The notes under the pieces are model-generated. The model saw only the letters and a list, made by a program, of their open reading frames with translations, was not told the DNA's origin and did not search any database. A stretch of DNA of 40,075 nucleotides from a virus. Where the stretch lies: IMG/VR virus record IMGVR_UViG_3300037076_000127, positions 1 through 40,075 of that record; one strand, 5' to 3'. The position numbers were made by a program, and so were the translations under genes. This document shows positions 1,526-40,075 of the stretch, one piece after another; positions within the stretch are counted from its first letter, which is position 1, and each line of letters starts with the position of its first letter.

Positions 1526-2476
1526 ATGAACGACGACCTCGGCCCACTCGCCGCTGCGCTGGCGAAAGCGCAGATGGACTTTCCCCCGATCAAGCGGGAC
1601 AAGACCGTCACCGTCCAAACCAAGACCGGCGGCTCGTATTCGTTCGCCTACGCCCCGCTCGACACGATCCTCGCCGCGGTGCGGAAGCCGCTCGCGGACA
1701 ACGGGTTGTGCATCGTGCAGATCCTCGACGATGACGGCCAGCCGATCCTCGTGACGCGGCTTCTGCACGACTCCGGGGCATCGCTCACCGGGCGCATGGC
1801 GATCCCGGCGACGCCGGGCATTCAGGAGCTCGGCTCGGCGATCACCTACCTCCGGCGCTACGCCATCCAGGCCGTGCTCGGCATCGCAGCCGAAGAGGAC
1901 GACGACGGCAACCGCGCCGCTGGAAACCGCGCAACCCCCGCGGCGCGCGGACGCGCTCAGACGGCCCCAGCCGCCGCAGGAGCCACGGAGACGACCGAAG
2001 CCGCACCGGCGGTCCATTCAGACGGCAGCCTCATCGGCACCGTCGCCATCGGCTCGGCGTGGCTCGAGGACCTCGAAACCCGCACGACCCCGACCGGCCC
2101 TGTGATCGGGTTCCGGCTCAAGTCCGGGCGCCAGACGCAGAAGGTGCAGGCTTTCGGCCCGATGGCCGTGGCGCTCGGCGGGCTCGGCACGGACCTCATC
2201 GGCCAGACCGTGACGTGCTGGGGAACGATGGTGGGCGCGGAGTTCACGCCGAAGGGGACCGACCGGCCAATCGAGTACCAGGTGCTGCGCTTGAAGAAGA
2301 TCCACGGCGCCACCTTCGACATCCCGGCTACCGAGTCGCGCGCCGTCCCTGACGAGGACGACCCGGAATGCGGCTCCGTAGCTGCGCCGGGGACGCTCAT
2401 GGAAGGCGCCGTCTGCACGCTGCTCCCTCACGCGACCGGACCGCACAAGAGCGCGAACGGATCGTGGCCGGCATGA
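1526..2476 (+). CDS. erf: ERF-family single-strand annealing protein
   Basis: ERF proteins bind single-stranded DNA and anneal complementary strands in phage recombination, and they help circularise terminally redundant genomes. This 316-residue product has the family layout: an N-terminal core (about 1-130) with FAYAPLDTILAAVRKPLADN and the hallmark segment GSAITYLRRYAIQAVLGI. An acidic EEDDDGN patch and an Ala/Thr-rich linker (about 130-175) follow. The C-terminal domain (about 180-300) resembles an OB-fold or accessory region and is less conserved. The ATG at 1526 lies 2 bases after the upstream stop; longer upstream starts would overlap that gene and are less likely. Confidence 0.85.
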   Translation: MNDDLGPLAAALAKAQMDFPPIKRDKTVTVQTKTGGSYSFAYAPLDTILAAVRKPLADNGLCIVQILDDDGQPILVTRLLHDSGASLTGRMAIPATPGIQELGSAITYLRRYAIQAVLGIAAEEDDDGNRAAGNRATPAARGRAQTAPAAAGATETTEAAPAVHSDGSLIGTVAIGSAWLEDLETRTTPTGPVIGFRLKSGRQTQKVQAFGPMAVALGGLGTDLIGQTVTCWGTMVGAEFTPKGTDRPIEYQVLRLKKIHGATFDIPATESRAVPDEDDPECGSVAAPGTLMEGAVCTLLPHATGPHKSANGSWPA

Positions 2477-2736
2477 GCGCCATCGACCGTGACCGGCTGG
2501 CACGGGCATATCACGCCGTCAACTGCCCACGACGGCGACAGGCCGCGATGCATTCCTGCGGCTATGCCAAGCAGCACCACGCAACGGCCGTGGCGCTCGC
2601 CGCCGAGTACCTCCGCCTCGCCGATCAGTGCGGCATCTGCCACCGCCGAGAGGCCGAGTCAACCATCGAATTCGGCGGCCGGTTGGTGAGCGTCTGCGGC
2701 ACCTGCCGTGAGCGCGGAGAGGAGGCTGCTTCGTGA
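2473..2736 (+). CDS. Small zinc-ribbon protein, 87 aa
   Basis: ATGA overlap with erf sets the start. The N-terminus is a basic helix (IDRDRLARAYHAV) and the C-terminal half has two CxxC knuckles, CGICHRRE and CGTCRERG, about 20 residues apart, as in a four-Cys zinc ribbon. Function unknown; nucleic-acid binding is plausible given its neighbours. Its opening AIDRDRLARA resembles the segment that follows the dispersed repeats at 8.6-11.2 kb (AIDRERLARA). Confidence 0.7.
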   Translation: MSAIDRDRLARAYHAVNCPRRRQAAMHSCGYAKQHHATAVALAAEYLRLADQCGICHRREAESTIEFGGRLVSVCGTCRERGEEAAS

Positions 2737-3470
2737 ACGATGAGCCGCTCGTCCTGTTCCCGGAGGACGCCACGCCGTACCTGCCGGTCGGGTCCATCAC
2801 GATCCCGGCTCAGGACCTTCTCCGTGCCCTCGTCGCGGTGATCCACGCGGCGGCAACGGACGACGCCCGGCCGATCCTGGCAGCCGTCGCCATCCAGCCG
2901 CGCGAGACCGCGGACGCGGTGCGCCTGATCGCTTCCGACAACTACCGCATCGCCATGTGCGACGTGGACGCTGAGCTCGAGGAAGCTGGGGACTGGCGCG
3001 GCACCGTCCCGGCCGCGGTCGAGGACGTCAAGCGGCTGGTGGCCGTGCTCAAGTCCGTCCCCGACATTCGGACCGACGAGTGCACGGCGCGAGTGGTCCT
3101 GACCCTCGGGGTGAAGGGCCTCGATGGCGCCAGTCCGCGCCGGCTGGACGCGTTCGTCAACGACGAGACGCCCATTGCCCGCCTACCGCTGCGCGTCATC
3201 GACGGCCTGTACCCGAACACCGCGCTCCTCATCCCGGCGGCCCCTGAGCACATCGCCACCTTCAACCCACAGTACCTCTCCGAGGCCGCGAAGTTCGGCG
3301 GTGCGGCCGATCCGGACGGCGGCGGGCTGATCAGTCAGGCCTGGTCCGGAAAGGGATCGGACGGACCCTTCGTCTTCCTGTCCGGCCGGTTCACCGAGAT
3401 CGTCATGCCGGTCAAGGCCGCCAGACGTGTTGACCCGGAGACGGGCGAGATCCTCGGCGGCGCGTCGTGA
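2733..3470 (+). CDS. Sliding-clamp-like protein (DNA polymerase III beta-type)
   Basis: Beta clamps encircle DNA and tether polymerases. The 245-residue product shows clamp-like landmarks: DARPILAAVAIQ, then VRLIASDNYRIA (the family's usual pattern is RPIL then L-A-T-D-x-Y-R-L), a FNPQYLSEAAKF segment, and a C-terminus ending FTEIVMPVKA, close to the usual MPM/MPV end. A bacterial clamp has about 370 residues in three domains, so this is a shortened or two-domain phage version. GTG start in a GTGA overlap. No phage polymerase is encoded, so it would have to work with a host polymerase or a repair enzyme. Confidence 0.65.
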   Translation: MNDEPLVLFPEDATPYLPVGSITIPAQDLLRALVAVIHAAATDDARPILAAVAIQPRETADAVRLIASDNYRIAMCDVDAELEEAGDWRGTVPAAVEDVKRLVAVLKSVPDIRTDECTARVVLTLGVKGLDGASPRRLDAFVNDETPIARLPLRVIDGLYPNTALLIPAAPEHIATFNPQYLSEAAKFGGAADPDGGGLISQAWSGKGSDGPFVFLSGRFTEIVMPVKAARRVDPETGEILGGAS

Positions 3471-3619
3471 GCGACCTCCTGCTCCTCATCGCCGCCATCG
3501 GCCTGCTCTGCGGCGTCCTCGCCATCGGGGGCGCCATCGCTGATCGCTTCGAGCCCCCCAAGCCCGGCAGCCGGCGTGACGTCCGCCAGCGCAACCCGCA
3601 GGCGAGGCGCGTGCGATGA
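3467..3619 (+). CDS. Small membrane protein, 50 aa
   Basis: GTG start in a GTGA overlap with the clamp-like gene. Residues 3-24 form one hydrophobic helix (LLLLIAAIGLLCGVLAIGGA) followed by a basic tail rich in Arg, predicting an N-out/C-in membrane protein. Function unknown. The tight overlaps on both sides support translation. Confidence 0.6.
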   Translation: MSDLLLLIAAIGLLCGVLAIGGAIADRFEPPKPGSRRDVRQRNPQARRVR

Positions 3620-3870
3620 CCGTCTTCAACATCGACAATGCGCCCATCACAGGTTGTCCCGACTGCGCGACGACGGCCGGACGTGCGGGGTGCACGCTCC
3701 ATAGCCGCCCCGTGCCGACCACCGCTGGGCCGGGCGTCTCAATCGTCCAAGAGGTCATGCACCGGCACCGCTGGGTGTACGACGGCCTCACCCCGTACGA
3801 CCAGCAGGCCGTCTACCACTGCGACGACCATGACCCGCCCGTGGTGCGCATCGTCGGGCTGCGGCCGTGA
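3616..3870 (+). CDS. Hypothetical protein with Cys/His pairs, 84 aa
   Basis: ATGA overlap start. It contains CPDC near residue 14, a further Cys at about 26 and CDDHD near residue 69, which may bind metal. No family recognised. Confidence 0.6.
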   Translation: MTVFNIDNAPITGCPDCATTAGRAGCTLHSRPVPTTAGPGVSIVQEVMHRHRWVYDGLTPYDQQAVYHCDDHDPPVVRIVGLRP

Positions 3871-4049
3871 CGCCCCTCCGTCATCCCGGCGAGTCGGCAG
3901 CCGCTGCCGTGCGACGCCTGGAGCCGCTCCCGGACTATGCGCGCCTCATGGGCTCCGAGGCCGGACAGGAACTGCTGCGCGAGGCGTGGCGCGAGGCCCG
4001 GGAGGCGCGACGGCTGACGGCTGTGCGTGGGCGGGAGGTGACGGCATGA
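3867..4049 (+). CDS. Hypothetical basic helical protein, 60 aa
   Basis: GTG start overlapping the previous TGA. The product is helical and Arg/Glu/Ala-rich (EAWREAREARRLTAV), with no recognised domain. It ends in an ATGA overlap with the helicase gene and may mainly serve translational coupling. Confidence 0.55.
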   Translation: MTPLRHPGESAAAAVRRLEPLPDYARLMGSEAGQELLREAWREAREARRLTAVRGREVTA

Positions 4050-6250
4050 GCGACTACGCGGCGTTCCTCGAGAGCAAGCGCATCGTCGTCGCGGCGCACG
4101 GCCCCCACGTCGAGGCCGAGGCCGTCAATCCGATCCTGTTCCCGTTCCAGCGCGACCTCGTGCGCTGGGCCGTCCGCAAGGGCCGGGCCGCGATCTTCGC
4201 GGACACCGGACTGGGCAAGACGTTCATGCAGATCGAATGGGCGCGGCTCATCGGCGAGCGGACGCTGATCGTGGCGCCGCTGTCCGTGGCGCGCCAGACG
4301 GCCCGCGAGGCGGCGAAGCTCGGCGTGACCGTGACCTACACGCGCGGCGAGCTTCTCGACGGCATCTCGATCACGAACTACGAGATGATCGAGCACTTCG
4401 ACCCGGCCGACTACGGCGCGGTCGTGCTGGACGAGTCCAGCATCCTCAAGGCGCTCGACGGCAAGACGCGGCGACTCCTGACGGAGATGTTCGCGGCCAC
4501 GCCCTACCGGCTGTGCTGCACCGCGACACCCGCCCCGAATGACATCGCGGAGATCGGCAACCATTCCGAGTTCCTGGGCGTGATGCCCCAGCACGAGATG
4601 CTGTCCGCGTTCTTTGTCCATGACTCCAATGGCACGGCCGAGACGGGCGGGGCGCGCGAGGGCTGGCGGCTCAAGGGCCACGCGGCCGAAGCCTTCTTTC
4701 GCTGGCTCGCGTCGTGGGGCATGGCTGTCCGCAAGCCGTCCGACCTCGGCTATGAGGATGACGGGTTCGCGCTCCCGGCCCTGACCATCCGCCCGGAGTT
4801 CGTGGAGGCGACCTACGTCCCCGAGGGCCAGCTGTTCTTCGCGGGGCTCAAGGGCGTGACGGACCGCGCGCAGGTGCGCAAGAACACCATCGACGCGCGG
4901 GTCGCCCGAGCGGCCGAGTTCGTCAACGCGAGCCCGGACCAGTGGATCGTCTGGCACGGCCTGAACGCCGAAGGCGAGGCGCTGATGCGCTCGATCCCGG
5001 GCGCCGTGCTGGTCGAAGGGTCGCAGTCGCCCGAGCACAAGGCCGAGGTGCTGGAGGCCTTCCAGGACGGCGCATATCGCGTGCTCGTCACGAAGCCATC
5101 CATCGCCGGGTTCGGCATGAACTTCCAGAACGCGCACCGGATGGCCTTCGTCGGCCTGTCCGACTCGTGGGAGTCCTACTACCAGAGCATCCGGCGCTGC
5201 TGGCGGTTCGGCCAGGCGCAGGAGGTGGAGGCGGTCGTGGTCCTTTCCGATGCCGAGGCGGCGATCTACGAGAACGTGATGGGCAAGGAGCGCGAGGCGC
5301 TGCGGATGCAGCAACGGCTCATCGATCACGTCTCCGGGTTCGAGCGTGAGGAACTGCTGGAGGAAGAGGAGGCGTTCCCGTACGAGACGACGACCGTCTC
5401 CCGTCCCGAGTGGACGATGATGCTCGGCGACTCGATCGAACGGCTGCGCGAGCTCGACGACTCATCGGTGGATCTCGCCGTGTTCAGCCCGCCGTTTGAG
5501 TCCCTGTTCACCTACAGCCCGAGCGACCGGGACCTCGGCAACAGCGCCAATACCGAGCAGTTCTGGACACACTTCCGCTTCCTCGTGCGCGAGCTCCTGA
5601 GGGTGACGCGCCCGGGCCGGAACATCGCCGTCCACTGCATGGCGATCCCGACGACCGTCGCCCGCGACGGGGTGACCGGCATCCGGGACTTCCGGGGCGA
5701 CATCATCCGCGGGTTCGTGGGTGAGGGCTGGACGTTCCACGGCGAGGTGACGATCGACAAGGACCCCCAGGCGCAGGCAATCCGCACCAAGTCGAAGGGG
5801 CTCCTGTTCGTCCAGAAGGACCGCGACCGCGGCTGGCTCCGGCCGGCGCTGGCCGACTACATCGTCGCCTTCCGCAAGCCGGGCGAGAACGCCGAGCCGA
5901 TCCGGTCCGACGAAGTGTCCAACGACGACTGGATCGAATGGGCCCGGCCGATCTGGTACGGCATCCGCGAGAGCGCCACGCTCAACGCGGCCGAGGCCCG
6001 CGACGACCGGGACGAGCGCCACATCGCCGCGCTCCAGCTGGAGACGGTGCGCCGCTGCGTGCTCCTGTGGAGCAACGCCGGCGACCTGATCCTCGATCCC
6101 TTCGCGGGCATCGGGACCACGGGCTACGTGGCCGTTCAGAACGGGCGCCGGTTCGTCGGCTGCGAGCTCAAGCGGTCGTACTTCGATGCGGCAGTTCGGA
6201 ACATCGGGCGCGCGTCCAACGTGATGACCCTCGGACTCGACGTGGCATGA
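4046..6250 (+). CDS. SF2 helicase - DNA methyltransferase fusion
   Basis: Two enzymes in one 734-residue chain. The N-terminal part is an SF2/SNF2-type helicase: Walker A ADTGLGKT (52-59, K58), DEAH-like LDES (128-131), motif III TATP (159-162) and motif VI QSIRRCWRFGQ (about 380-390). After an acidic linker (about 440-455) comes a DNA methyltransferase with the catalytic SPPF (481-484) and the SAM-binding DPFAGIGTTG (684-693). That order, motif IV before motif I, fits the beta class (N4-cytosine or N6-adenine). ATG at 4046 overlaps the preceding stop; the open frame continues upstream to about 3638 but only as a shadow of other genes. Known relatives occur in phages. Likely roles are replication-coupled unwinding plus self-methylation against restriction; no nuclease domain is visible, so this is not a complete restriction enzyme. 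Confidence 0.85.
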   Translation: MSDYAAFLESKRIVVAAHGPHVEAEAVNPILFPFQRDLVRWAVRKGRAAIFADTGLGKTFMQIEWARLIGERTLIVAPLSVARQTAREAAKLGVTVTYTRGELLDGISITNYEMIEHFDPADYGAVVLDESSILKALDGKTRRLLTEMFAATPYRLCCTATPAPNDIAEIGNHSEFLGVMPQHEMLSAFFVHDSNGTAETGGAREGWRLKGHAAEAFFRWLASWGMAVRKPSDLGYEDDGFALPALTIRPEFVEATYVPEGQLFFAGLKGVTDRAQVRKNTIDARVARAAEFVNASPDQWIVWHGLNAEGEALMRSIPGAVLVEGSQSPEHKAEVLEAFQDGAYRVLVTKPSIAGFGMNFQNAHRMAFVGLSDSWESYYQSIRRCWRFGQAQEVEAVVVLSDAEAAIYENVMGKEREALRMQQRLIDHVSGFEREELLEEEEAFPYETTTVSRPEWTMMLGDSIERLRELDDSSVDLAVFSPPFESLFTYSPSDRDLGNSANTEQFWTHFRFLVRELLRVTRPGRNIAVHCMAIPTTVARDGVTGIRDFRGDIIRGFVGEGWTFHGEVTIDKDPQAQAIRTKSKGLLFVQKDRDRGWLRPALADYIVAFRKPGENAEPIRSDEVSNDDWIEWARPIWYGIRESATLNAAEARDDRDERHIAALQLETVRRCVLLWSNAGDLILDPFAGIGTTGYVAVQNGRRFVGCELKRSYFDAAVRNIGRASNVMTLGLDVA

Positions 6251-8012: not shown

Positions 8013-8353
8013 CCGAACCCACGTCCCTGACGTGTGCCCGTTGCGGCAAGCATGTGCGCCTGCCGAAGCCCCACGGTGGCCTCTGCTGTGCTTGCGCCGA
8101 GACGCTTCTGGATCGCGCCACCCTCGACGCCGCCCGAGCGCCCCTCCCCGACAGCGACCTCGCGGGGCTGCGGGAGGCGGTCATCCACGCGGCCCGGGAC
8201 GTGGACGGGATGTGGTTCCCGCAGGATGACAACTGGACTGGGACGGACCTGACCTTCTGGGGGCCGGAAGCGGGCGAGGCGCTACGTGATCTTCGGACAG
8301 CCACGACCGCGCTCGACGACTTCGAGAGTGCCAAGGCGAAGGAGCCCGGGTAA
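8009..8353 (+). CDS. Zinc-ribbon protein, 114 aa
   Basis: ATG at 8009 is preferred because it overlaps the upstream TGA; a GTG three codons upstream would also be in frame. CARCGK and CCAC near residues 9-30 form a zinc ribbon. The rest is acidic and helical. No recognised family. Its TAA overlaps the next ATG (TAATG). Confidence 0.6.
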   Translation: MTEPTSLTCARCGKHVRLPKPHGGLCCACAETLLDRATLDAARAPLPDSDLAGLREAVIHAARDVDGMWFPQDDNWTGTDLTFWGPEAGEALRDLRTATTALDDFESAKAKEPG

Positions 8354-9195
8354 TGCCGTACGAACCCAACCCGCCCTGCATGGCCGACCTCGCCTGCTTT
8401 CGCAACGACGGCCACGCCGGGGATCACGCCTACCCGACGCCCGAGACGAAGCCGCAGCCATTCACGGAAGATCCACACGCGACCGCGCCGCTCGGGTCAC
8501 CCGAACGGCTGGCCTATGACTTCGCGCTCGATGTCGGGAGCGCCTATCCCAAGACCTACCCCGACGTGCTGGCGCTCGAAGCGGACCTCTTGCGCTTTCT
8601 CCGTGCCGCCCTCGCGGCTGCGCCCACCCCAGCCATCGACCGGGAGCGGCTGGCACGGGCGGTGTTCGAGTCGGAGCGGCCCGGCGACTGGCCGACGTGG
8701 GAGGACTACATCGGCGCGTTCGGAACTCCCGGCATCGCCCCTTGGACGCGGAAGGCTGATCGCATCCTCGCCGCGCTCTCCCCGGCTCCCCGAGAGGAGA
8801 CGACCTACATCCGCACCTGTCTCCCCACGCCACCACGCACACAGAGGAGGACACGGGCAATGGGTAAGAAGGCCACGGACCAGCAGGAGTACACGATCGA
8901 CTGGGCCGGCCACTACTCGATGGAGACCATCGACAGGGCTTGGGGTGCGTACCACCGCGTGATCCGCGAGTCGCCCGAGAGGGCGGGCATCGAGGCTCGT
9001 GCAGGAGTCCGACCCATGCCGAGCGTCGAGGTGGGCGACCGCATCATCGTCGAGGGGACGGTCTACGTCGTCACCCGCGATCCCGACGCCAACCGCCTGT
9101 ACTCCATCCCCTTCCTCTCGCCTGTCGGCGAGGTCTTCGACATGGCTCCTGACGAGGCGGAGCCGACCTCGGACATGGAGGGCGACGATGACTGA
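8353..9195 (+). CDS. Composite hypothetical protein, apparent gene fusion
   Basis: A 280-residue open frame that looks like two genes run together. Part one (about 1-155) has a Cys/His N-terminus (CMADLACFRNDGHAGDH), then the boundary peptide AAAPTPAIDR (about 89-98) and the end peptide SPAPREETT. Neighbouring genes with SPAPREE(T)T end within a codon or two of it, but here the frame continues. Part two begins at ATG 8860 behind a strong AGAGGAGG (8843-8850, 9-base spacing) and could be made separately as a 111-residue protein (MGKKATDQQEY start, acidic end). Neither half is recognised. Confidence 0.6.
   Translation: MPYEPNPPCMADLACFRNDGHAGDHAYPTPETKPQPFTEDPHATAPLGSPERLAYDFALDVGSAYPKTYPDVLALEADLLRFLRAALAAAPTPAIDRERLARAVFESERPGDWPTWEDYIGAFGTPGIAPWTRKADRILAALSPAPREETTYIRTCLPTPPRTQRRTRAMGKKATDQQEYTIDWAGHYSMETIDRAWGAYHRVIRESPERAGIEARAGVRPMPSVEVGDRIIVEGTVYVVTRDPDANRLYSIPFLSPVGEVFDMAPDEAEPTSDMEGDDD
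8608..8643 (+). repeat. Dispersed boundary repeat R1, copy 1
   Basis: Core GCTGCGCCCACCCCAGCCAT, encoding AAPTPAI. Conserved at nucleotide level with four other copies between 9.5 and 11.2 kb. Confidence 0.85.
8778..8804 (+). repeat. Start-associated repeat R2, copy a, not at a start
   Basis: Carries the full GGCTCCCCGAGAGGAG core but no start codon follows, so the frame reads through it. It may mark a lost gene boundary within the 8353-9195 frame. Confidence 0.75.
8860..9195 (+). CDS. Possible separate product from internal start, 111 aa
   Basis: Alternative in-frame translation of the C-terminal part of the preceding entry. ATG 8860 follows AGAGGAGG at 8843-8850, one of the best ribosome-binding sites in the region. 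The product starts MGKKATDQQEYTIDWAGHY, has a beta-rich centre (SVEVGDRIIVEGTVYVVTRD) and an acidic tail. No known domain. Confidence 0.5.
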   Translation: MGKKATDQQEYTIDWAGHYSMETIDRAWGAYHRVIRESPERAGIEARAGVRPMPSVEVGDRIIVEGTVYVVTRDPDANRLYSIPFLSPVGEVFDMAPDEAEPTSDMEGDDD

Positions 9196-9367
9196 CCGCC
9201 GCGACCTCGCCGACGGCATGTGCCCCCATTGCGACGGGTACGGCTTCCGACCCGTCGACCCCCACCCGTGGCGCCTGTGGTTCGCCCGGATCGTCGCGGC
9301 CGTGGGCATCGTCCTCTACCCCATCGTCATCGTGGCCCTGTGGGCGCGGCTCGTGTGGGGCTTGTGA
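9188..9367 (+). CDS. Small membrane protein with CxxC, 59 aa
   Basis: ATG overlaps the upstream gene end by 8 bases. CPHCDG at residues 12-17 is followed by a Trp-rich stretch and one hydrophobic helix (about 32-52, IVAAVGIVLYPIVIVALWA). A membrane-anchored zinc-knuckle protein of unknown role. TGATG overlap with the HD gene. Confidence 0.6.
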   Translation: MTDRRDLADGMCPHCDGYGFRPVDPHPWRLWFARIVAAVGIVLYPIVIVALWARLVWGL

Positions 9368-10620
9368 TGGACCTTCGCCGAGCACCCCTGCGCGAGCGGG
9401 CCAACCGGCTCTCCCGAGGCTCCGTCCGGTCGTCGGGCGACTCGTGGCCCGATCTGGCCGCGGACGCCCTCGCGGCTCTGGATTTCGTGGCCCAGAACGA
9501 AGCCGTCGCCCTCGCGGCTGCACCCACCCCAGCCATCGACCGGCGGTGGATCGACGCGGCGGATCGAGCCCTGACCAACGGGTCGGCATTCACCGGCTAT
9601 AGCGCACCGGACCCGATTGCCGCGCACATCGCCCTCGACAACGCGCTTCGCGGCGAGCCGTTCATCACCACGCCCACCGTGCCGCAACTCGATCCCGCCG
9701 ACACCTGCACTTGCGGCCACCGACGCGACCACCACACCAACCGGGACGTGGACGATGTGGTGGGCTGGCCGTGCCTCGACTGTCAGTCGAAGCGGTGCCG
9801 AGGGTTCGCCGCGCTGGACGCCCCGATGACCGCTCCGGACACCACGCCCCTGACGCCGGAGGAGGTTCGCCTCGCCGCGCGGTTCCATGACGTCTCCAGT
9901 GGCGAACTCGGCGTCTGCATCCACAGCCCCGAGAACGAGTGGCAGCCGGACTGCGAGGAGTGGGCGCATTCGTATTGGCTCGGCGTCTCCGTCACCGCCA
10001 CCCTCGACGCCGAGCGCTCCGCCATCGCGGCTGCGCCCACCCCAGCCATCGACCGGGAGCGCGGCGACTGGATGGCGACGTTCCGCGGCGGTCGGTTCTA
10101 CCCGCTCGACCCGCGCCCCGAGGACATCGATCCGCGGGACATCGCGCACGCCCTGTCCCTGCTCTGCCGGTATGGCGGACACGTCGAGCGGTTCTATAGC
10201 GTCGCCGAGCACTGCGTCCTGATGTCCCTCTGGGTCCCGCCCGAGGATGCCTTGGCGGCTCTGCTGCACGACGCGACAGAGGCGTACGTCGTGGACGTGC
10301 CCCGGCCCCTGAAACGGTCACTCGCGGGCTATCGGGCCATCGAGACATGGGTGGCCGTCGCCATCGCGGCGCGGTTCGGCACGAGCCCCGACCTGCCCGC
10401 CTCCGTCCGCGAGGCCGATGACCGCATCCTCCTGACCGAGCGAAACGCCCTGATGCCGTACGCCACTCGGGACTGGTATCAGGACGGCCGCATGGACCCG
10501 CTGCCCGTGACCATCGAAGGCTGGCCGCCCGAGGAGGCCGAACGTCGCTACGCCGACCGACTCGCTGAACTCCTCGCCGCGCTGGACGCCTCCCCGGCTC
10601 CCCGAGAGGAGAACGCATGA
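9367..10620 (+). CDS. HD-domain hydrolase (YfbR-like) with mosaic N-terminus
   Basis: 417 residues. The C-terminal half (about 230-410) is an HD phosphohydrolase of the YfbR/5'-deoxynucleotidase type: GGH (H272), AEH (H282), LLHDATEAY (H301, D302), then EADD (D351/D352). Such enzymes act on nucleotides; phage forms may tune the dNTP pool. The N-terminal part (1-230) looks stitched together: AAAPTPAIDR recurs at about 50-60 and 222-231, a Cys/His ribbon (CTCGHRRDHH...CLDC) sits at about 113-140, and FAALDAP-MTAPDTTPLTPEE at about 148 resembles an old gene start. A DNA repeat lies at each AAAPTPAIDR joint. The gene ends with SPAPREENA and the R2 element. Confidence 0.75.
   Translation: MDLRRAPLRERANRLSRGSVRSSGDSWPDLAADALAALDFVAQNEAVALAAAPTPAIDRRWIDAADRALTNGSAFTGYSAPDPIAAHIALDNALRGEPFITTPTVPQLDPADTCTCGHRRDHHTNRDVDDVVGWPCLDCQSKRCRGFAALDAPMTAPDTTPLTPEEVRLAARFHDVSSGELGVCIHSPENEWQPDCEEWAHSYWLGVSVTATLDAERSAIAAAPTPAIDRERGDWMATFRGGRFYPLDPRPEDIDPRDIAHALSLLCRYGGHVERFYSVAEHCVLMSLWVPPEDALAALLHDATEAYVVDVPRPLKRSLAGYRAIETWVAVAIAARFGTSPDLPASVREADDRILLTERNALMPYATRDWYQDGRMDPLPVTIEGWPPEEAERRYADRLAELLAALDASPAPREENA
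9508..9543 (+). repeat. Dispersed boundary repeat R1, copy 2
   Basis: Same sequence as copy 1 with one base change (GCACCC for GCGCCC). Encodes AAAPTPAIDR at an apparent module joint in the HD-domain gene. Confidence 0.85.
10021..10056 (+). repeat. Dispersed boundary repeat R1, copy 3
   Basis: Near-identical to copy 1. It sits immediately before the HD domain and encodes AAAPTPAIDRE. Confidence 0.85.
10590..10616 (+). promoter_or_regulatory. Start-associated repeat R2, copy b, with RBS hairpin
   Basis: Contains GGCTCCCCGAGAGGAG five bases before the ATG at 10617. CTCC and GGAG are complementary, so the ribosome-binding site could fold into a small hairpin (loop CCGAGA). Confidence 0.7.
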
Positions 10621-10904
10621 ACCCCGGCGATACGCTGATGGCCCCGACCGAGGTTCGCCCGTGGCAGTCGGACGTCCTGCGGCACCGCGTGTTCTCCATC
10701 CGCCGCGGCGCTCGGATGGAAGTGATCCGACGCCCGTTCCCGACCAACCGGGGCGAGATGGTCCGCGTTCGGGTTCCGTTCGCCGAAATGGTCTGGCGAC
10801 CGGGATGGCGCGTGCCCGAGGAGCATGACCGCCGCGACTTCTACGACCTCCTCGTCAAGACAAGCGAGGTCTCCCCGGCTCCCCGAGAGGAGACGACCGA
10901 ATGA
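10617..10904 (+). CDS. Hypothetical protein, 95 aa
   Basis: ATG start 5 bases after the GGAG of repeat R2 and overlapping the upstream TGA. Compact, basic, beta-rich, with WRPGWRVPEEHDRRDFYDLL towards the end, and closing with the shared SPAPREETTE tail. No family recognised. Confidence 0.6.
   Translation: MNPGDTLMAPTEVRPWQSDVLRHRVFSIRRGARMEVIRRPFPTNRGEMVRVRVPFAEMVWRPGWRVPEEHDRRDFYDLLVKTSEVSPAPREETTE
10871..10900 (+). promoter_or_regulatory. Start-associated repeat R2, copy c
   Basis: Same element as at 10590, directly ahead of the ATG at 10901 (GGAG about 10 bases upstream). It also encodes the SPAPREETT tail of the upstream gene. Confidence 0.7.
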
Positions 10905-11434
10905 GTGACCAACTGCGCGAGGCGCTGGACCACATCGCCCATCTCGGGTCGTCGGTTCCGCCGGGGATGATGCCCGAGTCGTTCTTTCACCTCCAGATGA
11001 ACGAGGCCATCCGCACGGCCGCAGTCGCCCTCGCGGCTGCGCCCACCCCAGTCATCGTGGACGACGAGCCGTGCTCCCGCTGCGGCGTCTGGCGTCGCTT
11101 CCACGTCCAAGGCCCGGAGTATTCGCGGGATCACGGCTGGCTCGCGGCTGCACCCACCCCAGCCATCGACCGGGCAACGTTGCGGGCGCAGATCATCGAG
11201 AGCGCCAACAAGCCGAGTTACGCGGCGTCGAACGAACTGCACTCGTTCAGCCTGTGCCTCGGCTGCGTCCTCGACATCATCGACCGCGCCGCGCTGGACG
11301 CCTCCCCGGCTCCCCGACCCGCCGCGCAGCAGACGACCACGGCCGACGACGACGCATGGCTGACCGGCAAGACGCAGACGCGGCAGACGCCCGCTTGGGA
11401 CTCCCCGGCTCCCCGAGAGGAGACGACGCCGTGA
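10901..11434 (+). CDS. Mosaic hypothetical protein with boundary peptides, 177 aa
   Basis: ATG follows R2 copy c. The protein holds AAAPTPVIV (about 45-53) and AAAPTPAIDR (about 82-91) with a Cys pair (CSRCG) between them, then a CLGC knuckle, ASPAPRPAA, and the terminal SPAPREETTP. It therefore reads as three short modules joined by repeats R1 and R2. No enzyme motif seen. Function unknown. Confidence 0.6.
   Translation: MSDQLREALDHIAHLGSSVPPGMMPESFFHLQMNEAIRTAAVALAAAPTPVIVDDEPCSRCGVWRRFHVQGPEYSRDHGWLAAAPTPAIDRATLRAQIIESANKPSYAASNELHSFSLCLGCVLDIIDRAALDASPAPRPAAQQTTTADDDAWLTGKTQTRQTPAWDSPAPREETTP
11027..11057 (+). repeat. Dispersed boundary repeat R1, copy 4 (diverged end)
   Basis: Matches the core of copy 1, then diverges after CCCAGTCATCG. 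Confidence 0.75.
11141..11173 (+). repeat. Dispersed boundary repeat R1, copy 5
   Basis: Near-identical to copy 2, 114 bases after copy 4 in the same gene. Confidence 0.85.
11302..11317 (+). repeat. Partial R2 repeat, copy d
   Basis: CTCCCCGGCTCCCCGA without the GAGGAG half. Internal to the 10901-11434 gene. The preceding GCCGCGCTGGACGC also matches the sequence ahead of copy b. Confidence 0.75.
11401..11430 (+). promoter_or_regulatory. Start-associated repeat R2, copy e
   Basis: Full element directly ahead of the GTG at 11431, with the same 30-base spacing as copy c. Confidence 0.7.
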
Positions 11435-11852: not shown

Positions 11853-12208
11853 AGCGCATCCAGCGCCAGCGGACCAAGGGCTGGCGGATGCCCGAGGGTG
11901 CGATCTACGTCGGCCGGCCATCTCAGTTCGGCAACTTCTATCGCGTCGGTGACGTGGCCTACACCGGCTCAATGCCCTTCCCCCTTCGGACGGTATCGGA
12001 GCCCCGGAACGAGCCGCCCGTCGTCGCCGAGCGCTGCGAGTCTGCCGCGCAGGCCGTGGCGTGGTTCCGACAGTGGGCCGAGAAGATGGTCGAGCGATAT
12101 CCCGACTGGCTCGAACCCCTCCGCGGCCACGACCTCGCCTGCTGGTGCCCGCTGGATGGCCAGCCGTGCCACGCGGACGTGCTGATCGAACTGCTCGGGG
12201 AGTCGTGA
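11849..12208 (+). CDS. DUF4326-family protein
   Basis: 119 residues with the family's two signatures: an N-terminal IYVGRPSQFGNFY (about 17-29) and a C-terminal LRGHDLACWCPLDGQPCHADVLIEL (about 90-114). DUF4326 proteins are small and common in phages and bacteria; their biochemical role is not established, and the CxCxxxxxxCHxD arrangement suggests a metal site. GTG start in a GTGA overlap. Confidence 0.8.
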   Translation: MKRIQRQRTKGWRMPEGAIYVGRPSQFGNFYRVGDVAYTGSMPFPLRTVSEPRNEPPVVAERCESAAQAVAWFRQWAEKMVERYPDWLEPLRGHDLACWCPLDGQPCHADVLIELLGES

Positions 12209-12438
12209 TGGCCCCCCGCAACCGCGACGAGCACGGCCTGACGCCCCGCGAGGCCGAGGCCCTGGAATGGCTCGGCAGGGGTCTCGAGGCCAAGGAGATC
12301 GCCGTGAAGATGGGGATCAGCGAGAACACCGTCAAGAACCACCTGTACCTCGCCTACCGTGCGCTCGGCGTCGAGACCGCGGCGGAGGCGTTCATCGTCA
12401 AGGGCTGGCTTGTCGTGCCTGGCGAGGTGGCGCCGTGA
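12208..12438 (+). CDS. Stand-alone LuxR-type HTH protein, 76 aa
   Basis: Residues 9-65 match a LuxR/GerE DNA-binding domain: LTPREAEALEWLGRGLEAKE, then IAVKMGISENTVKNHLYLAY. No receiver or sensor domain is attached. It probably binds DNA as a dimer and may regulate phage or host promoters. TGATG start overlap. A second such gene lies at 13550. Confidence 0.8.
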   Translation: MAPRNRDEHGLTPREAEALEWLGRGLEAKEIAVKMGISENTVKNHLYLAYRALGVETAAEAFIVKGWLVVPGEVAP

Positions 12439-13005: not shown

Positions 13006-13553
13006 CCCGCCGTGCCGCCGCCGTCGCGATCGTCCTCGCCCTCATCGCAGGGTTCGTCGCAGGCGCTAGCGTCCGCTCTGCTGCGACCTCCCGGCCCGCT
13101 CCGCTGTCGTTCGTGCCGTTCCCGGCGGTACCTGCGGCAGAGGGGCGGACCGGGGCGCCGACTCATGCGCCGAAGGGTGCCCTCCAGGCGCAGCCTCGGC
13201 GTCCCGCGGCGGATGGGCATGGCACCCCAGCTCCGTCCGTCCAGCCGGCGGTCACGACGTCACCGACGCCTGTGGCCCGCATTGCGTCGTCCACGCCGGC
13301 ACCTACCCCGCGAGGAACGGCCCTACACGGCACGGCGAGCTGGGGCTACGGCTGGTCGGGCGTCGTCTCCCGGCTCCCGCGGGGGACGTGGATCTGCGTC
13401 ACCGGCCCCGTTGGCAAAGCCTGCGGCCGTTCGGTTGGATATGGCCCGGCCGTCTGGACCCATAGGCTCGTGGACTTGGATAGGGCGACGTTCCGCGCGG
13501 TGTGCGGGCCGCTGTCGATCGGACTCTGCCGCGTGTCGGTGGCCGGCGCGTGA
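13002..13553 (+). CDS. Secreted RlpA-like (double-psi beta-barrel) protein
   Basis: 183 residues. A Sec-type signal peptide (about 1-25, MTRR then a hydrophobic run ending AGA) is followed by a Pro/Ala/Thr-rich linker (about 30-105). The C-terminal domain of about 75 residues has LHGTASWGYGWSGVVSRLPRG, GYGPAVWTHRLVDLD and GPLSIGLCRVSV, the pattern of RlpA-type double-psi barrels. RlpA proteins bind or cleave peptidoglycan glycan strands. There is no lipobox Cys. It may help cell-wall breakdown at lysis or alter the host envelope. Confidence 0.65.
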   Translation: MTRRAAAVAIVLALIAGFVAGASVRSAATSRPAPLSFVPFPAVPAAEGRTGAPTHAPKGALQAQPRRPAADGHGTPAPSVQPAVTTSPTPVARIASSTPAPTPRGTALHGTASWGYGWSGVVSRLPRGTWICVTGPVGKACGRSVGYGPAVWTHRLVDLDRATFRAVCGPLSIGLCRVSVAGA

Positions 13554-13765
13554 CGCCGCTCTGCGACCGCCTGAGCCCCCGCGAGGAGGAGGTCATCGTC
13601 CTCCTCGCCGACGACCTCGGGCAGCGCGAGATCGCGCTCCGGCTCGGGATCGCCGAGGCGACCGTGCGCAGCTATCGCGCCAGCGCCCGGACCAAGCTCG
13701 GTGTGCAGACGACCGCGGCCGCTGTGGCGATCGTCGTCCGGGCGCGCCTGGTCGCGGTGCGCTGA
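13550..13765 (+). CDS. Second stand-alone LuxR-type HTH protein, 71 aa
   Basis: GTG start overlapping the previous stop. LSPREEEVIVLLADDLGQRE followed by IALRLGIAEATVRSYRASAR matches the LuxR/GerE HTH. Clearly related in layout to the protein at 12208 but not a recent duplicate at sequence level. The two may heterodimerise or control different operons; that is inference. Confidence 0.8.
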   Translation: MTPLCDRLSPREEEVIVLLADDLGQREIALRLGIAEATVRSYRASARTKLGVQTTAAAVAIVVRARLVAVR

Positions 13766-39447: not shown

Positions 39448-40075
39448 CCACGATCGAAGTCCGCACGCAGAGCGAGCTCGACGCCGCGCTCGACACTGCC
39501 AAGGCGTACGACATCATCGCCATGGTCGGCGGCTCGTGGCTGGAAGTCAGCCGGCTGCCGAAGTCCGACTCGGCCACGGTCAGGGCCTACGACTCGGCCA
39601 CGGTCACGGCCTACGGCTCGGCCACGGTCTGGGCCTTCGGCTCGGCCACGGTCACGGCCTCCGGCTCGGCCACGGTCTGGGCCTACGACTCGGCCACGGT
39701 CACGGCCTCCGGCTCGGCCACGGTCACGGCCTTCGACTCGGCCACGGTCACGGCCTTCGGCTCGGCCACGGTCACGGCCTTCGACTCGGCCACGGTCACG
39801 GCCTCCGGCTCGGCCACGGTCACGGCCTACGACTCGGCCACGGTCACGGCCTCCGACTCGGCCACGGTCACGGCCTACGACTCGGCCACGGTCACGGCCT
39901 ACGACTCGGCCACGGTCACGGCCTCCGGCTCGGCCACGGTCACGGCCTCCGGCTCGGCCACGGTCAGGGCCTACGGCTCGGCCACGGTCAGGGCCTCCGA
40001 CTCGGCCACGGTCAGGGCCTACGACTCGGCCACGGTCAGGGCCTACGACTCGGCCACGGTCACGGCCTACGGCTC
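39444..40075 (+). CDS. Octapeptide-repeat protein with DUF7666-like C-terminus, 5' part
   Basis: This is the N-terminal part of a gene that runs off the window end and resumes at base 1 in the same frame. Joined across the 126-bp terminal overlap it would encode about 497 residues. Its ATG overlaps the stop of the upstream gene (ATGA). A non-repetitive head of about 41 residues is followed at 39567 by 24-bp units, each encoding (Y/S/F)(G/D)SATV(T/R/W)A. From 39567 up to the terminal overlap there are 16 units. The regular T-V-T/R spacing suggests a stacked beta-solenoid. Proteins with this SATV array and a DUF7666-type end are known from actinobacterial phages, but their role is unknown to me. 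The protein could be a virion fibre or an intracellular scaffold. Confidence 0.85.
   Translation, partial: MTTIEVRTQSELDAALDTAKAYDIIAMVGGSWLEVSRLPKSDSATVRAYDSATVTAYGSATVWAFGSATVTASGSATVWAYDSATVTASGSATVTAFDSATVTAFGSATVTAFDSATVTASGSATVTAYDSATVTASDSATVTAYDSATVTAYDSATVTASGSATVTASGSATVRAYGSATVRASDSATVRAYDSATVRAYDSATVTAYG
39567..40075 (+). repeat. 24-bp tandem repeat array, right part
   Basis: The same 24-bp unit, 21 copies to the window end, of which the last five plus 6 bases repeat the start of the window. TGG (Trp) variants at the Thr/Arg codon occur only here, at about 39615 and 39663. Phe variants are also more frequent than in the left part. Confidence 0.97.
39950..40075. repeat. Terminal direct repeat, right copy
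   Basis: Identical to bases 1-126. Removing one copy leaves about 39,949 unique bases. Confidence 0.8.

Follow-up and report, generated by a model that had tools for sequence, protein, structure and literature searches.

Repeated joint and end sequences in a cluster of small modular phage genes

The gene cluster and its two repeats

The window analyzed here is the whole of a 40,075-base viral record with 71% GC, in which early genes lie to the left, structural genes to the right, and nearly all genes are on the plus strand. Its left part contains a cluster of genes, here called A to D, that carry copies of two short repeats, R1 and R2 (Table 1). The R1 DNA reads GCCCTCGCGGCTGC[G/A]CCCACCCCAGCCATCGACCGG and encodes the peptide ALAAAPTPAIDR. 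It is found five times on the plus strand (at 8608, 9508, 10021, 11027, and 11141), once in gene A and twice each in genes B and D, with all copies direct in orientation and in one shared frame. The original prediction of five near-identical copies in the same frame of three genes was thus right on positions, frame, and genes, but near-identity over the whole repeat applies to four of them (at most one mismatch over 32 nt; 0 expected in shuffled sequence), as the copy at 11027 matches in its 5' 26 nt only and then diverges (PVIVD). Identical blocks between copies reach 37 nt (copies 1 and 3), 33 nt (copies 2 and 5), and 26 nt, with 11–22 nt in the remaining pairs, and the outer ends differ among the copies. 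A single base divides the copies into a GCG variant (copies 1, 3, and 4) and a GCA variant (copies 2 and 5), and both variants occur together within gene B as well as within gene D.

The first codons of another gene (2473–2736, start GCCATCGACCGTGACCGGCTGGCACGGGCA), which adjoins the gene of an ERF-family annealing protein, had been said to resemble the segment that follows R1. This resemblance was recovered at the DNA level, since 27 of 30 nt agree with the 3' part of the first joint, compared with 21 of 30 at the next best place in the window.

R2 (TCCCCGGCTCCCCGAGAGGAGA), which did not form part of the original prediction, is present in four copies without a mismatch over 22 nt, and pairs of copies have 23–29 nt in common. 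Three copies (10590, 10871, and 11401) end a gene and hold an AGGAG motif 5–8 nt 5' of the next start codon, while the repeat itself reaches upstream of this Shine-Dalgarno sequence into coding sequence. The R2 copy inside gene A (8777) and the partial one inside gene D (11291) are probably former gene ends. The second half of gene A has a strong Shine-Dalgarno sequence and an ATG of its own near 8861 (AGAGGAGGACACGGGCAATGGGTAAG) and may be a separate gene that either shares the frame of the module gene upstream or has been fused to it; gene A is possibly a fusion with this downstream gene.

Table 1. Modular genes, repeat copies, and related features of the window
Feature	Position	Strand	Description
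ERF-family single-strand annealing protein	1526..2476	+	PF04404, E 5e-17; possible catalyst of exchange by short homology
Start of gene 2473-2736 (AIDRDRLARA)	2479..2508	+	27/30 nt as in the 3' half of the R1 copy 1 joint
Modular gene A	8353..9195	+	one R1, internal R2
R1 copy 1	8608..8661	+	gene A; longest joint (ALAAAPTPAIDRERLARA)
R2 copy 1 (SPAPREETT)	8777..8805	+	inside gene A; probable former gene end
Modular gene B	9367..10620	+	N-module, R1, Cys-rich module, R1, HD 5'-deoxynucleotidase domain, R2
R1 copy 2	9508..9543	+	gene B; ALAAAPTPAIDR, GCA variant
R1 copy 3	10021..10061	+	gene B; AIAAAPTPAIDRE, directly 5' of the HD phosphatase domain
R2 copy 2	10590..10612	+	end of gene B and Shine-Dalgarno of gene C
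Gene C	10617..10904	+	no R1, R2 at end
R2 copy 3	10871..10899	+	end of gene C and Shine-Dalgarno of gene D
Modular gene D	10901..11434	+	N-module, R1, CxxC..H..H module, R1, helical module, partial R2, tail, R2
R1 copy 4	11027..11052	+	gene D; 5' part only (ALAAAPTP, then VIVD)
R1 copy 5	11138..11173	+	gene D; WLAAAPTPAIDR, GCA variant
Partial R2	11291..11317	+	inside gene D; GCGCTGGACGCCTCCCCGGCTCCCCGA, common with 10579-10605; probable earlier gene end
R2 copy 4	11401..11427	+	end of gene D and Shine-Dalgarno of gene 11431

Copying of the repeats at the DNA level

To what extent the conservation of R1 concerns the DNA can be read from its codons. Where two copies have the same amino acid, they also use the same codon in 94 of 100 pairs, compared with a mean of 45 and a maximum of 74 in 5,000 trials in which codons were drawn from the phage's own usage. 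One gene in the set from which this usage was taken was misframed and the start of another perhaps misplaced as well, which blurs the null slightly and cannot explain the gap. Furthermore, the rare codons CCA and GCT are found in every R1 copy. R1 was thus copied as DNA, and selection on the peptide alone, which this codon test rejects, is insufficient as the cause of its identity. This bears out the earlier proposal that the DNA and not only the peptide is conserved, and R1 does not show the ordinary codon-level divergence that had been named as evidence to the contrary.

The repeats end abruptly. In the 57–60 nt flanking R1, identity between copies is 21–43%, which is chance for this composition, and on both sides of R1 and R2 pairs it drops to 15–47%, which is about chance as well; the segments joined by R1 are thus unrelated, as had been claimed. 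Outside of a tandem array at the window ends, the window contains 15 non-tandem repeat pairs of at least 20 nt, while codon shuffles yielded 0. The mixture of GCG and GCA variants within genes B and D points to separate copying events and argues against duplication of whole genes. An assembly artefact was considered and rejected, as usual sequencing reads are far longer than the repeats and the genes are in frame throughout.

At the same time, R1 is an ordinary-looking Ala/Pro inter-domain linker followed by the start of the next module, so that some of its conservation can be explained by the protein. Predicted secondary structure places R1 at helix ends or between helices in genes B and D, with low confidence. 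Taken together, R1 is most plausibly an inter-domain joint, composed of a helix end, an APTP linker, and the start of the next module, that has been copied at the DNA level within this genome.

The phosphatase fusion in gene B

One module border lies in gene B, where an HD-type deoxynucleotide 5'-phosphatase part (phrog_318, E 3e-65) starts directly after R1 copy 3. In 39 related viral loci, the homology to gene B starts at or close to this R1 joint. In many of these loci, the HD domain begins a few residues from what looks like the start of a stand-alone gene (MSDTWL-RGDWMQTF), whereas here the domain follows R1 (AIDRE-RGDWMATF; for example, MSDTWLRGDWMQTFTG in relatives versus AIDRERGDWMATFRGG in gene B); some relatives have other upstream extensions of the reading frame, whose status is uncertain. 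The phosphatase is a separate gene in most related phages, and no fusion to R1 was found among them. With stand-alone starts in the relatives and the domain following R1 here, gene B is a fusion with R1 at its joint. A structure model of gene B gives the HD domain with confidence and the part preceding it with low confidence, and a model of gene D made from one sequence shows the same picture, with low confidence. Judged from their sequence, the CxxC..H type segments in genes B and D look like small zinc-binding units.

Similar designs in other phages

R1 was searched for in viral contigs and genome contigs, both exactly and in degenerate form, with no matches or mostly chance ones. The R1 peptide had no match in phages by tblastn, where low-complexity filtering may mask the peptide, and gene A, the N-terminal part of gene B, gene D, and gene 2473 had none in named phages. 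The window also encodes, at 4046–6250, an SNF2-type helicase fused to an N6/N4 DNA methylase, which has relatives of about 38–79% identity in at least 80 viral loci. The relatives found through this gene lack homologs of the R1 genes. These sequence searches returned no close relative and hence none with swapped modules, nor did they return homologs of gene A or D that lack R1 and run uninterrupted across its site.

The pattern P[AT]P-x-[IL]-D-x-[DE]-RLA returned ten loci in viral contigs, several of which are chance matches. One of them, L134 (a record of 69.5 kb and 70% GC), has three consecutive genes with common boundary repeats around unlike insides, namely a 26-nt start (in two genes), joints of 39, 24, and 20 nt, and ends of 25, 22, and 19 nt. 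Its joint ALAATPAPALDVERLARA parallels ALAAAPTPAIDRERLARA of the phage studied here, and its joint LRAALAATPAPALDVERLARA is close to LRAALAAAPTPAIDRERLARA. At the shared residues of the 12-codon joint, 35 of 87 codons agree between the two phages, which is the level set by codon usage, compared with 23 of 23 within L134. Together with the 94 of 100 within the window, this means that the two phages have the peptide in common but that its DNA is uniform only inside each of the two genomes. The presence of the same design with its own DNA version in L134 supports copying within a genome. One stretch deviates from this rule, as GAGCGGCTGGCACGGGCG (window 8632–8661; L134 3591–3620) is identical in both phages, including a rare GCA codon. 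The neighboring joint codons agree at chance level only, and this identity may reflect a recent transfer between phages or a signal at the DNA level. A search for relatives of the L134 genes returned L134 alone.

Two further records have similar joints. L131 contains four PAPAL joints within a single reading frame; in L006, two genes have their middle and end in common. L006 is the only clear case among about 124 loci that had been fetched for other reasons, and the design is therefore not common. In L091, a 71-nt repeat (2125–2195 and 3616–3686) covers a gene end and the following intergenic stretch, with unrelated flanks.

A possible mechanism and its alternatives

We consider it likely that R1 and R2 are DNA-copied joint and end pieces of small modular proteins, with exchange by short homology through the ERF protein as the probable process. 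In this scheme, R1 encodes the close of a helix (ALAA), then a flexible linker (APTP), and finally the opening residues of the module that follows (AIDR-ERLARA). R2 is the matching end piece, encoding a SPAPREE tail and also supplying the Shine-Dalgarno sequence and overlapping start of the next gene. Copying of R1 and R2 as DNA within the genome would place different modules between the same joints, and short-homology recombination at the repeats, by strand annealing or unequal exchange, would add new segments, in frame, on either side of a joint. The likeliest catalyst would be the phage's own ERF annealase. That R1 is a recombination boundary, as originally predicted, is partly supported by its conservation at the DNA level, its position at joints, the R1/HD junction, and the independent design in L134, whereas we infer that exchange takes place at the repeats, that ERF is its agent, and that the joints are still active or preferred boundaries. 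These observations suggest that recombination at short repeated joints is how phages of this kind assemble new small proteins.

The annealase varies across the parallel cases, with ERF in this phage and RecT in the L006 record, while the L134 record has neither ERF nor RecT and instead an AAA_24 protein. AAA_24 is a broad family that may include Sak4-like recombinases. Minimum pairing lengths of 31–34 bp for RecA and 23–27 bp for Redbeta have been reported, and the ERF protein of phage D3 was as efficient as Redbeta (PMC3945230). The published annealase minimum is reached by some repeat pairs only (37, 33, and 26 nt for R1; 23–29 nt for R2).

If the cluster arose from old gene or segment duplications, the genes would be diverged paralogs in which R1 and R2 survive only through selection on the peptides of linker and tail. 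Other phages do have the peptide ALAAxPxPA-[IL]D, so that the protein sequence itself is favored, and the L134 genes also have starts and ends in common. This origin is nevertheless unlikely, as synonymous sites are near-identical within the genome and random between genomes, flank identity is at chance at once, and the copy variants are mixed within genes. Somewhat more improbable is a conservation of R1 and R2 as nucleic acid, such as binding sites or translation signals comparable to the Start-Associated Sequences (SAS) of cluster K mycobacteriophages. SAS are repeats containing a Shine-Dalgarno sequence upstream of the starts of unrelated genes of different families (PMC3203893), and R2 resembles them in the placement of AGGAG before three start codons, though not at 8777. 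However, SAS have a 13-bp consensus (GGGATAGGAGCCC) that R2 does not match, and R2 is longer, extends upstream beyond the Shine-Dalgarno sequence to encode the end of the preceding protein, and occurs together with a joint inside genes. R1, moreover, lies inside genes and always in one frame, and its copies have no common fold.

The absence of such a fold also speaks against palindromic in-frame elements and attC-like sites. R1 could in principle be a small selfish element inserting in frame, as the Rickettsia palindromic elements do, since it is repeated, in frame, and abruptly bounded on both sides. We regard this as very unlikely because R1 is not palindromic, no hairpin is common to the copies, their outer ends differ, and copy 3 lies at the fusion point before a complete HD domain and not within a domain. 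Programmed shuffling by a site-specific recombinase, in the manner of a shufflon or integron, would explain why several identical short sites flank exchangeable segments, but it is hardly credible here, given that all copies are direct, that no hairpin is conserved, and that profile searches confined to the window found neither a tyrosine recombinase (PF00589) nor a resolvase-type serine recombinase (PF00239).

Relation to known phage mosaicism

Phage mosaicism has been explained by two models, one in which recombination is targeted to short shared boundary sequences and one in which segments join at random before selection acts (PMC3233612). Like the boundary sequences reviewed there in the Phamerator paper, R1 is short conserved DNA that borders exchangeable units with unrelated flanks, and its conservation exceeds what codon usage would give. 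However, known boundary sequences lie between genes and were seen by genome comparison, whereas R1 lies inside genes of one genome, with several copies per cluster. The new element here is thus the known idea of a boundary sequence located inside genes. For the endolysins of mycobacteriophages, one study reported no evidence that boundary sequences lie between the domains (PMC3314691). Domain mosaicism of phage proteins (PMC10684548) likewise describes proteins assembled from fragments with separate histories, but it concerns fragments common to different phages, and the searchable text of that study does not mention paralogs, linkers, or within-genome boundary repeats. The relaxed, annealase-driven recombination of temperate phages (PMC3945230) is a candidate mechanism whose pairing length and ERF activity fit, although it was described between phages and prophages over longer regions, in contrast to the in-gene joints of one genome considered here.

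The two models are competing answers to how mosaicism comes to coincide with the borders of genes and domains, and repeated in-gene joints of about annealase length provide a concrete and testable case for the targeted model inside genes. They also suggest where the many small, unique phage proteins could come from. A broader reading, to which we give only a small chance, is that certain phages maintain genome-specific cassettes for joints (linker DNA) and for ends (tail and Shine-Dalgarno DNA) as standing substrates of their own annealase, with zinc-finger-like and enzyme modules continually recombined in frame and concerted copying maintaining the in-gene boundary mosaicism.

Further features of the window

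Near the ERF gene, the protein encoded at 2733–3470 has the central domain of the beta clamp of DNA polymerase III (PF02767, E 9e-7, a match slightly above the cut-off). Downstream of the modular genes, two small proteins (12208–12438 and 13550–13765) resemble, by eye, LuxR/GerE-type helix-turn-helix regulators. A 24-bp tandem array encoding 8-residue repeats of the SATVRAYD type occupies both window ends (1–510 and 39560–40075), and the first 126 nt of the window equal the last 126 nt. The array at both ends and the equal 126 nt make it probable that the genome is closed through this array, even though its record is listed as linear.
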